Origin: Betaproteobacteria bacterium
GTDB taxonomy: Bacteria > Pseudomonadota > Gammaproteobacteria > Burkholderiales > SG8-39
Length of the DNA stretch: 64,000 bases
Assembly (NCBI GenBank): GCA_005881595.1
Contig: VBBY01000005.1
Span: 1 to 64,000 of the forward strand
Direction: 5' to 3'
The stretch's first letter is position 1, and the number at the start of each line of letters is the position of its first letter. Below the pieces are notes generated by a model. The model did not search any database and was not told the origin of the DNA. It worked only from the letters and a program-made list of their open reading frames with translations. This document shows, piece by piece, positions 50,192 to 57,271 of the stretch. The position numbers were made by a program, and so were the translations under genes.

Positions 50192-50553
<362 letters not shown>

Positions 50554-50645
50554 AGTCCGCCGAAGTGTGCCGTATGTAGAGCACTTAGCCGCTGTGCCGC
50601 AGGACCGCTAGCAAAAAATGCGTCATTGCATGTAGCCTATTACCC

Positions 50646-52712
50646 ATGAGAAAGGGGAGGAGGGTCGCGGCCATGGTGCTCGCCATGGTGCCGGCCTGCG
50701 CCGTGGCGCAGGACGACGTCGTGGTGATCACCGCGACGCGCCAGCCACAGCCGAGCCTGGAGATTCCGGCATCGGTCGACCGGATCTACGCCGACGAGAT
50801 CCGCGAAGGCCGGCCGCAGGTGAACCTCTCGGAGAGCCTCGGCCGCGTGCCGGGCATCGTGGTGCAGAACCGGCAGAACTACGCCCAGGACCTGCAGATC
50901 TCCTCGCGCGGCTTCGGCGCCCGCTCGACCTTCGGCGTGCGCGGCATCCGCCTCATCGCCGACGGCATTCCGGCAAGCATGCCCGACGGGCAGGCGCAGG
51001 CGGCCAACTTCGACTTGGGCTCGGCACAACGCATCGAGGTGCTGCGCGGCCCGTTCTCCAGCCTTTACGGCAACGCTGCCGGAGGCGTGATCAGCATCGA
51101 GACCGAGGATGGCGCGCCGATCCCGACGGGCGAAGCGAGCCTGACGCTCGGCAGCTACGGCACCTGGCGTGAAGCGATGAAGTTTGGCGGCCAGTCCGGG
51201 GAGCTCGGCGGCACGGCAAGCATGTCTCATTTCCATACCGAGGGGTATCGCCAGCACAGCGAAACGAACCGGGACCTTGCCAATGGAAAGTTGAAGTACG
51301 CAGTCAGCCAGGACACGTCGCTGACGCTGATTGGGAATACCCTGCGCCAACCACAGACCCAGGACCCCTTGGGGTTGAAGCGAGCAGAGTTCAGCCAAGA
51401 CCCGCGCCAGGCGACGCCGGACGCGATCACCTTCAATACGCGCAAAACCGTAGTGCAGGAGCAACTCGGTTTGGCTCTGGACCATCGACTCGATGCTTCT
51501 AACAGCTTGCAGGCGACGGTGTATGGCGGGCAGCGCTGGGTCGAGCAATTCCTCGCCATTCCGATCAACACCCAGATGGCGGCCACGCATTCGGGAGGCG
51601 TGGTGAATCTCGATCGCGGCTACGGCGGCGCGGCGCTGCGTTACTTCAGGACTATCTCCAGCTTCCGCCTTTCAGCCGGCGTGGAGTATGAAACGCTGAA
51701 GGAGCGGCGCAGGGGATTCCTCAACAACTTCGGCGAGTCCGGCGCGCTGAAGCGCGACGAAGACAATACCGTGTCGAGCACCGGCCTCTTTGCGCAAGGC
51801 GAATGGAAGTTTGCCGAGCGCTGGTCGGCGCACGCCGGCCTGCGCACGAGCAACGTGCGCTTTGAGTCCGAGGACCATTTCATCGCTACGGGGAACGGTG
51901 ACGACAGCGGCTCGAAGTCTTATCGGGGCACGACGCCCGTGGCCGGTTTGCTATATAGACTGAACCAAGCAACGAGTCTTTACGGCAATGTCGGCCGAGG
52001 CTTCGAGACGCCGACGCTGGTGGAGGTGGCGAACCGCCGCGGCGGAACCGGCTTCAATTTCGACATCCAGGCGAGCAGCAGCCGCCATGCCGAGCTCGGC
52101 GTGAAATCCATCGTTCCGGGCTGGATGCGGCTGAACGCGGCGTTGTTCGACATCGTTACCAGTAACGAAATCGTGGTCGATCAGAACTCCGGCGGGCGCG
52201 CTTCGTTCAAGAACGTCGGACATACCGACCGCAAAGGCATCGAGCTTGGCGCGGAGACGGTGTTCCCGGGGCCATTCGAGGCACGCATCGCCTACACGTA
52301 CTTGAAGGCGACGTTCCGCGAAGCTTTTACCACCGTGGTGACCCTGCCGCCAATGACGGTGAACGTGCCCGCGGGTAGCCTTCTACCTGGGGTGCCGAAG
52401 AACGTGCTCTACGGCGAGCTGCGCTACCGCCACGAGCCTTTCTATGCGCAGCTCGAGGCGCTCCACAAATCTCGCGTCCCGGTCAACGACCCCAACTCCG
52501 AGTTCGCGGACGCCTATACGACCCTCAACCTGATGGCCGGGGTGGTCCAGCAGGGCCGCAACTGGCGCATTACGGAGTTCGCGCGCATCGACAATCTGAC
52601 CGACCGCAACTATGTGGGCTCGGTGATCGTCAACGAGACGAACAGCCGCTTCTACGAGCCTTCGCCGCGCCGCAACATGACCATTGGCATCCAGGCAAGC
52701 CTTCAGTTCTAA
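50646..52712 (+). CDS. TonB-dependent receptor, YncD/PqqU-like
   Basis: NLSESLGRVPGIVVQNRQNYAQDLQISSRGFGARSTFGVRGIRL...YVGSVIVNETNSRFYEPSPRRN closely resembles E. coli YncD from memory. Confidence 0.88.
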   Translation: MRKGRRVAAMVLAMVPACAVAQDDVVVITATRQPQPSLEIPASVDRIYADEIREGRPQVNLSESLGRVPGIVVQNRQNYAQDLQISSRGFGARSTFGVRGIRLIADGIPASMPDGQAQAANFDLGSAQRIEVLRGPFSSLYGNAAGGVISIETEDGAPIPTGEASLTLGSYGTWREAMKFGGQSGELGGTASMSHFHTEGYRQHSETNRDLANGKLKYAVSQDTSLTLIGNTLRQPQTQDPLGLKRAEFSQDPRQATPDAITFNTRKTVVQEQLGLALDHRLDASNSLQATVYGGQRWVEQFLAIPINTQMAATHSGGVVNLDRGYGGAALRYFRTISSFRLSAGVEYETLKERRRGFLNNFGESGALKRDEDNTVSSTGLFAQGEWKFAERWSAHAGLRTSNVRFESEDHFIATGNGDDSGSKSYRGTTPVAGLLYRLNQATSLYGNVGRGFETPTLVEVANRRGGTGFNFDIQASSSRHAELGVKSIVPGWMRLNAALFDIVTSNEIVVDQNSGGRASFKNVGHTDRKGIELGAETVFPGPFEARIAYTYLKATFREAFTTVVTLPPMTVNVPAGSLLPGVPKNVLYGELRYRHEPFYAQLEALHKSRVPVNDPNSEFADAYTTLNLMAGVVQQGRNWRITEFARIDNLTDRNYVGSVIVNETNSRFYEPSPRRNMTIGIQASLQF

Positions 52713-52741
52713 TAGCGCCTCCTACCGAGGAGACGAGAGAC

Positions 52742-53959
52742 ATGAGAGACCTTGCCGTTGCTGCCGCGGCCATGGCCGTATTCACCGTTGCCCAAGCCCA
52801 GGACAAGCCCGCCGCAGCGCCGCCGCCTTCCTGGCACCAGGGCAAGCCACCCGCGCTCGGCGAGTCGACACTGCACCCGTTCGCGCCGAACCTGGCCGGG
52901 CGCTCGGCGAAGGACCTGCCGACCGACAAGCTGAAGGTTCCGCCCGGCTTCAAGGTCGAAGTCTGGGCCGAAGGCATTCCCGAGGCGCGCTCGCTCGCGC
53001 GCGGCGAAAAGGGCACGGTGTTCGTGAGCAACCGCCTGTCGAAGAACGTGTACGCCGTCGTGGACCGCGGCGGCACGCGCGAGGTGAAGACCATTCTCAA
53101 GGGCCTCAACTCGCCGAACGGCATCGCCTTCAGCCGCGGAACCCTGTTTGTCGCGGAGCGCGACAAGATCACGCGCTACGACGGCATCGAAGGCAGGCTC
53201 GACAATCCGGGCCAAGGCAAGGTGGTGGTCGAGGGTCTCGATCCGACCCAGCAGCCGGGGCACTACTGGAAGTACCTCGCGATGGGGCCGGACGGGAAGC
53301 TCTACTTCAACATCGGCGCCCCCGGCAACATCGTCATGCCGAACTACACGCAGGCCTCGATCATGCGCGTGGATCCCGGCAAGGGTGTGCTCGAGAACGT
53401 CGCGCTGGGCGTGCGCAACTCGGTCGGCTTCGACTGGAATCCCAGGACCAAGGAGCTGTGGTTCACCAACCACGGGCGCGACTGGCTGGGCGACGACTCG
53501 CCGAACGACACGCTTCACCGGGTGACGAGCAAGGGAGTCCATTTCGGCTATCCGTTCTGCCACCAGGGCGACACGCTCGACCCCGACTACGGGAAGAACC
53601 GGTCGTGCTCGGAATTCGCGCCGCCTGCGCTCAAGCTCGGCGCGCACATCGCGCCCCTCGGCATGAAGTTCTACACCGGCAAGATGTTCCCGGCGGAATA
53701 CCGGAACAACATCTTCATCGCCATGCACGGCTCGTGGAACCGCAGCACCAAGCAGGGTTATAACGTGACGCGCGTGGTGGTCAACGACAAGGGCAAGGTC
53801 ATCAGGTCGGTGCCATTCCTGACCGGCTTTCTGCAGGACGAGAGAGGCGATCCGCCGATGTGGGGCCGCCCGGTCGACGTCCTGGTGATGCGCGACGGCG
53901 CGTTGCTCGTTTCCGACGACTACAACGGCGTTATCTATCGGGTCAGCTACGGGAAGTGA
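52742..53959 (+). CDS. PQQ-dependent sugar (sorbosone) dehydrogenase-type protein
   Basis: 405 aa; VWAEGIPEARSLARGEKGTVFVSNR...GVRNSVGFDWNPRTKELWFTNHGRDWLGDD. Confidence 0.88.
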   Translation: MRDLAVAAAAMAVFTVAQAQDKPAAAPPPSWHQGKPPALGESTLHPFAPNLAGRSAKDLPTDKLKVPPGFKVEVWAEGIPEARSLARGEKGTVFVSNRLSKNVYAVVDRGGTREVKTILKGLNSPNGIAFSRGTLFVAERDKITRYDGIEGRLDNPGQGKVVVEGLDPTQQPGHYWKYLAMGPDGKLYFNIGAPGNIVMPNYTQASIMRVDPGKGVLENVALGVRNSVGFDWNPRTKELWFTNHGRDWLGDDSPNDTLHRVTSKGVHFGYPFCHQGDTLDPDYGKNRSCSEFAPPALKLGAHIAPLGMKFYTGKMFPAEYRNNIFIAMHGSWNRSTKQGYNVTRVVVNDKGKVIRSVPFLTGFLQDERGDPPMWGRPVDVLVMRDGALLVSDDYNGVIYRVSYGK

Positions 53960-54561
53960 CGGCGGCTTCGGCCACCCGGCGCGGCGCGGCGATCGCATTC
54001 GCTGCGCTGGCGCTCGGTGCGGCGAGCGTCGCCGCGGCCGATCGCGACGCCGGCCGGCGCAAGGCCGAGGTCTGTGCCGCCTGCCACGGCCCGGCGGGCA
54101 ATTCAGTGAACCCGGCAGTGCCGTCGATCGCCGGCCAGCCGGCGCAGTTCGTCGCCACCGAGCTGTTCCTGTTCCGTGAAGGCAACCGCAAGGACCCGCA
54201 GATGTCGGCGATCGCCGCGGGTCTTTCCAATGGCGACCTGAACGACCTGGCGGAATATTTCGCCGCCGAAAGGCCTGCGCCGCCCAAGCACCGCACCGCC
54301 CCGGAAAACGCCGCCGCGGCACCCGCTCTCGCGCACAAGTTCAACTGCGTGCAGTGCCACGGGCCCGAGCTCATGGGGCAGCAGCACATTCCGCGGCTGG
54401 CGGGACAGCAGCCGGACTACCTGCTCGCGCAGCTCAAGGGCTTCAAGGCGGGCACGCGCGCCGACATCGACGGCAACATGACCTCGGCCGCTCAGGCGCT
54501 CTCGGACCAGGACATCCAGGTCCTGGTCGACTATCTCGCCGGCTTGAGCTCCGGCAACTAA
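53956..54561 (+). CDS. Cytochrome c (c4-like, two hemes)
   Basis: CAACH and CVQCH; GTG start overlapping upstream stop by 4 nt. Confidence 0.9.
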   Translation: MTAASATRRGAAIAFAALALGAASVAAADRDAGRRKAEVCAACHGPAGNSVNPAVPSIAGQPAQFVATELFLFREGNRKDPQMSAIAAGLSNGDLNDLAEYFAAERPAPPKHRTAPENAAAAPALAHKFNCVQCHGPELMGQQHIPRLAGQQPDYLLAQLKGFKAGTRADIDGNMTSAAQALSDQDIQVLVDYLAGLSSGN

Positions 54562-54565
54562 AGTC

Positions 54566-57245
<2,680 letters not shown>

Positions 57246-57271
<26 letters not shown>

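Follow-up and report, generated by a model that had tools for sequence, protein, structure and literature searches.

A PqqU-type receptor, a six-bladed dehydrogenase and a diheme cytochrome c probably form a PQQ-scavenging and PQQ-using gene unit in a betaproteobacterium

Results

A three-gene unit at 50646-54561

We analysed a 64,000-nucleotide stretch of the draft genome of an uncultured bacterium, probably a betaproteobacterium (hereafter the window), and propose that positions 50646-54561 hold a gene unit that both scavenges and uses PQQ, a reading to which we assign a probability of roughly 0.78. The initial annotation had grouped a receptor, a propeller dehydrogenase and a cytochrome c gene here, with a 29-nt gap between the first two genes and a 4-nt overlap between the last two, and we confirmed its reading frames and coordinates. 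The features of the locus are as follows.

50646..52712, + strand: pqqU, putative TonB-dependent PQQ receptor, 688 aa with signal peptide (homology to E. coli PqqU, residue signature, clade)
50715..50741, + strand: TonB-box-like stretch DVVVITATR of the receptor, read from the translation
52742..53959, + strand: probable AA12-like/GSDH six-bladed PQQ sugar dehydrogenase, 405 aa with signal peptide (PF07995, profile, fold, residues)
53956..54561, + strand: diheme c4-like cytochrome c, 201 aa, GTG start, probable electron acceptor (two CxxCH motifs; 6q2u match)
54073..54087, + strand: heme-binding motif CAACH of the cytochrome c
54346..54360, + strand: heme-binding motif CVQCH of the cytochrome c
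54566..57271, - strand: acnA-type aconitase, a conserved downstream neighbour and locus marker outside the unit, also present in L094 and L062

The gap between the receptor and propeller genes contains a GAGGAG stretch resembling a ribosome-binding site, and signal-peptide-like N-termini are found on the propeller and the cytochrome c as well as on the receptor. The close spacing suggests that the three genes are read as a single transcript. A sigma-70 scan over 50400-54750 detected no promoter; we give little weight to promoter and terminator scans here, as they were uninformative. The named relative L094 has the same three genes in the same order with acnA likewise downstream, and its acnA is 84% identical to that of the window (81% in L062).

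PQQ supply and other quinoproteins in the genome

The draft genome (3.79 Mb, 96.6% complete, 257 contigs) encodes a single clear PqqU. We found pqqC neither in this genome nor in four other sampled genomes of the family, and no pqqE match in the draft genome passed the cut-off (best match 61 bits, cut-off 381 bits). By gene content, the bacterium seems unable to synthesise PQQ, and PQQ scavenging is well supported; this genome-wide check agrees with the initial annotation, which had proposed scavenging and had seen no pqq biosynthesis genes in the window. The same annotation described the operon as self-contained, a term that we abandon. The genome encodes at least six full-length methanol/ethanol-type (eight-bladed) quinoproteins beyond the neighbouring GSDH, as well as a second, separate GSDH of the Asd type, and the nearest PqqU lacks the enzyme pair at the same locus (see below). 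With these other enzymes in the genome, PqqU presumably supplies several clients, of which the neighbouring GSDH need not be the main one.

We note two further associations. At L070 (G000:C216:40000-55533), a second TonB receptor, which profile matches place with the siderophore type, lies between two eight-bladed quinoproteins, and a diheme cytochrome at this locus is 46% like that of the window; L070 could be a further cofactor- or metal-uptake unit for quinoproteins. Separately, pqqU lies approximately 8 kb or less from pqqC in 11 of the 24 genomes of the order that have both (G065, G148, G029, G114, G118, G070, G075, G039, G048, G092 and G016); a published survey of PqqU mentions pqqU-pqq synteny for only four Burkholderiales (PMC12124388).

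PqqU and GSDH genes are repeatedly linked

PqqU was present in 54 of 150 sampled genomes of the order. A GSDH gene lay within 5 kb of PqqU in 12 of these 54, which is about 25 times the expectation of approximately 0.5, itself a rough estimate from observed gene density. The pairing is not due to chance. The linked enzyme was AA12-like in nine genomes (G000, G143, G059, G144, G002, G097, G108, G147 and G049) and Asd-like in three (G015, G069 and G146), and a cytochrome c gene was present at all nine AA12-like loci. Receptor, GSDH and cytochrome c follow one another in this order in the window and in L094; six genomes have the order GSDH, cytochrome c, PqqU, and the arrangement is divergent in G143 and convergent in G144. 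Among 80 named PqqU loci, 9 had an AA12-like gene within 7 kb, in various arrangements. Linkage to PqqU changed nine times across a tree of 62 AA12-like enzymes, with linked cases on scattered branches. Comparison of cytochrome presence with PqqU linkage by independent pairs gave no signal, with too few informative pairs.

We rejected the idea of a fixed operon, given these many arrangements and an empty locus in G103 (L062; G103:C79:12000-25000). The PqqU of G103, the nearest to that of the window (66%), sits at the same msrA-hslR-pqqU-acnA-prpD locus without the GSDH-cytochrome cassette, and acnA follows pqqU within a few bases; this makes it a natural reference for how the cassette was gained, lost or replaced. 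The GSDH found at the pqqU-acnA locus belongs to one clade in the window and to another well-supported clade in L094, and is missing in G103. Hence, cassettes came, went or were replaced at this locus, and PqqU and the GSDH-cytochrome pair are not obligate partners.

Across the order sample, GSDH was present in 52 of the 54 genomes with PqqU and in 41 of the 96 without it (Fisher p 3e-12, shared ancestry ignored), an association that a conservative control for genome size lowers to p 0.02. We then considered genomes without eight-bladed enzymes, which we called with TIGR03075 at E 1e-40; an E. coli protein, presumably Gcd, is picked up at this cut-off. Of the 54 PqqU genomes, 22 lacked an eight-bladed enzyme; all 22 carried GSDH and none carried pqqC. 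Among genomes with neither PqqU nor an eight-bladed enzyme, GSDH was present in 31 of 85 (Fisher p 1e-8 versus 22 of 22, a value inflated by ancestry and genome size). A set of 50 named PqqU genomes, which may partly overlap the order sample, included 17 without eight-bladed enzymes, and GSDH was present in all 17 (16 by Pfam, and one, L100, with a GSDH cut at the contig end beside PqqU); it was common in the remaining named genomes too (29/33). The 17 include two Nitrosospira genomes (L107 and L111). In addition, the amoA-bearing genomes G015 and G146 encode PqqU together with a GSDH of the Asd type in the same orientation. The GSDH frame of G015 opens 3 nt after the receptor, with a likely signal-peptide start approximately 140 nt after it, and the GSDH of G146 lies approximately 2.8 kb from PqqU.

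These data bear on an alternative in which PqqU mainly feeds eight-bladed methanol/ethanol-type quinoproteins elsewhere in the genome and is adjacent to the GSDH-cytochrome pair only by chance or through shared regulation. The other quinoproteins of this genome and the empty locus of G103 would fit such a reading, but we consider it unlikely, because linkage exceeds rough chance, takes more than one gene order and is spread over the enzyme tree, and because GSDH is present in every sampled PqqU genome of the order that lacks an eight-bladed quinoprotein.

The propeller is a probable PQQ sugar dehydrogenase

The product of the second gene matches Pfam PF07995 (GSDH) weakly, at 53.7 bits against a cut-off of 25 and over approximately 100 columns. 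A profile of nine relatives retrieved fungal AA12 PQQ dehydrogenases first (TrAA12, 6i1t, E 7e-20; CcPDH, 6jt5, E 6e-19), followed by bacterial aldose dehydrogenases. An AlphaFold2 model (pLDDT 82) had 6jt5 as its best Foldseek match (E 1.8e-22), and the best 23 PDB matches were all six-bladed PQQ-type sugar dehydrogenases; hedgehog-interacting protein and lactonases were among the weaker matches. We use the label AA12-like for this likeness in sequence and fold; it does not imply formal CAZy AA12 membership.

The PQQ contacts listed for CcPDH (R273, H363, R430, N431, H539, H560, W563, N564 and R621; PMC6881789) align, in this order, with R83, H174, R225, N226, H302, H329, W332, N333 and R376 of the propeller, and the Ca ligand D451 aligns with D247, such that every listed PQQ and Ca contact is present. 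R83, H174, R225, N226, H302, W332 and N333 are invariant among 23 relatives, and H329 is replaced by R or K in some of them. A weak phmmer segment (query 115-142) was rejected as the counterpart of the R273 region, as the full profile alignment places R273 at R83. Judged from sequence and model, the protein is a probable PQQ sugar dehydrogenase. Many six-bladed propellers have no quinoprotein function, and the low Pfam score and the weaker fold matches could indicate a related lactonase- or binding-type protein without PQQ, in a cassette linked to pqqU for another reason. We regard this as improbable, since all listed ligands are kept, most of them invariantly, the best fold matches are PQQ enzymes, and the gene is paired with one for a c-type cytochrome and, in repeated cases, with one for a PQQ receptor.

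Compared with the fungal pyranose dehydrogenases Coprinopsis CcPDH (6jt5/6jwf, PMC6881789) and Trichoderma TrAA12 (6i1t, PMC6881810), the propeller shares the six-bladed fold and the AA12-typical HGSWN loop at approximately 20% identity. In CcPDH the cytochrome is a heme b domain fused to the enzyme, whereas the window has a separate gene for a diheme c-type cytochrome; bacterial homologues have been described as lacking the fungal cytochrome domain (PMC4133262). E. coli YliI/Asd (2g8s) and Acinetobacter sGDH (1c9u) belong to the same GSDH superfamily and have the catalytic His and Arg-Asn pair in common with the window propeller, but in the latter the AA12-type loop replaces the Lys377 contact of sGDH.

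The third gene encodes a protein with two CxxCH motifs whose best solved match is cytochrome c4 (6q2u, E 9e-24). It has two heme domains of the same type as c4 (6q2u, 1etp) and, unlike c4, is gene-linked to a quinoprotein, as whose electron partner it may act. Many relatives likewise have a separate gene for a diheme c4-like cytochrome 3' of GSDH.

The receptor carries the PqqU signature

The receptor matches E. coli YncD/PqqU (PDB 6v81, 9c4o; PMC12124388) over its full length (E 2e-158, far beyond chance), with 280 of 667 aligned residues identical (42%), and no other solved TonB receptor is close to it. PqqU has been defined by Y/F/W99, R304 and R365 (Munder et al. 2025, PMC12124388). The corresponding residues of the window receptor are F96, R297 and R355, and the signature is kept in 111 of 111 PqqU homologues that we collected. 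K267, R518, Q81, Q118 and Q301 further match E. coli K274, R536, Q84, Q121 and Q308. Unlike E. coli PqqU, the receptor has L, V and N at positions 310, 477 and 481 (Q310L, N477V and Y481N; 3 of 11 PQQ contacts), and its gene directly precedes a dehydrogenase-cytochrome pair. Single changes at these three positions were tolerated in the published assay (PMC12124388, in whose text one of them appears as N447E). A tree of 29 PqqU sequences, 3 of them enterobacterial, and 11 other TonB receptors from the same loci separated the two sets with 100% SH-aLRT support. The NCBIfam PqqU model NF041535 scored 662 bits, far above the next model (159 bits) and below its cut-off of 1200 bits, an NCBI naming threshold that we judged too strict and not a biological criterion; we used the residue signature for PqqU identity.

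These comparisons support the assignment of the receptor as PqqU, as the initial annotation had suggested from its likeness to YncD. That annotation had named a lack of PQQ-contact residues, or clustering with siderophore or metal receptors, as grounds for giving up the idea; we found the contacts present on alignment and the receptor in a fully supported clade that includes enterobacterial PqqU and excludes the other TonB receptors. Transport of another ligand, such as a siderophore or a different cofactor, is very improbable: sequence is a poor guide to TonB receptor substrates, the NCBIfam score is below the cut-off and three contacts differ, but the signature is complete here and in all relatives, the K274 and R536 equivalents are kept too, the PqqU clade is distinct, and PQQ genes are genomically associated with PqqU.

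We made two side observations on other PqqU sequences. At L074 and L075, from the amoA-bearing genomes G015 and G146 with an Asd-type GSDH nearby, PqqU has a glutamate at the K274 position, a variant proposed to co-bind a metal ion (PMC12124388). The PqqU of L101 (CAMDRT010000014.1), titled as a Bordetella parapertussis MAG, clusters with environmental betaproteobacterial MAGs, and the name is probably wrong.

Discussion

We infer PQQ transport, PQQ dependence, substrate, electron route and co-transcription as parts of the following scheme. The receptor would bind external PQQ and deliver it to the periplasm using TonB energy, where the apo form of the six-bladed GSDH/AA12-like dehydrogenase would take up PQQ and Ca2+. 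The enzyme would then oxidise a sugar-type substrate (an aldose or 2-keto-aldose), with H174 as general base, and electrons would pass to the neighbouring diheme cytochrome c and on to a terminal oxidase. PqqU would also provide PQQ to the other quinoproteins of the genome, and GSDH-cytochrome cassettes would repeatedly have come to sit beside pqqU. The parts of this scheme are known; judging by the searchable literature, which mostly leaves out subscription journals, neither the combination of pqqU with a GSDH-cytochrome pair nor its recurrence seems to have been described.

The only PqqU survey that we found searched with eight-bladed profiles only and left about one in three PqqU genomes, such as those of Nitrosomonadaceae, without a quinoprotein; its authors proposed that an enzyme yet to be identified, or a role as antioxidant, accounts for such genomes (PMC12124388). 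As all the PqqU genomes without eight-bladed enzymes that we sampled carry GSDH, six-bladed enzymes stand out as candidates for the PQQ enzyme that the survey did not find. We therefore lean, with some reserve, towards a combined view: (i) six-bladed GSDH are the clients that explain PqqU where no PQQ enzyme has been reported, in Nitrosomonadaceae and others; and (ii) cassettes of GSDH and cytochrome c have settled next to pqqU on repeated occasions, making units for import and use. This idea makes the open question of orphan PqqU raised by the survey experimentally testable, and adjacency to pqqU offers a genomic marker by which PQQ enzymes not yet described, with a cytochrome partner encoded separately, could be found. 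The pairing of PqqU with GSDH may explain why some bacteria without a previously reported PQQ enzyme, ammonia oxidisers included, retain PqqU.
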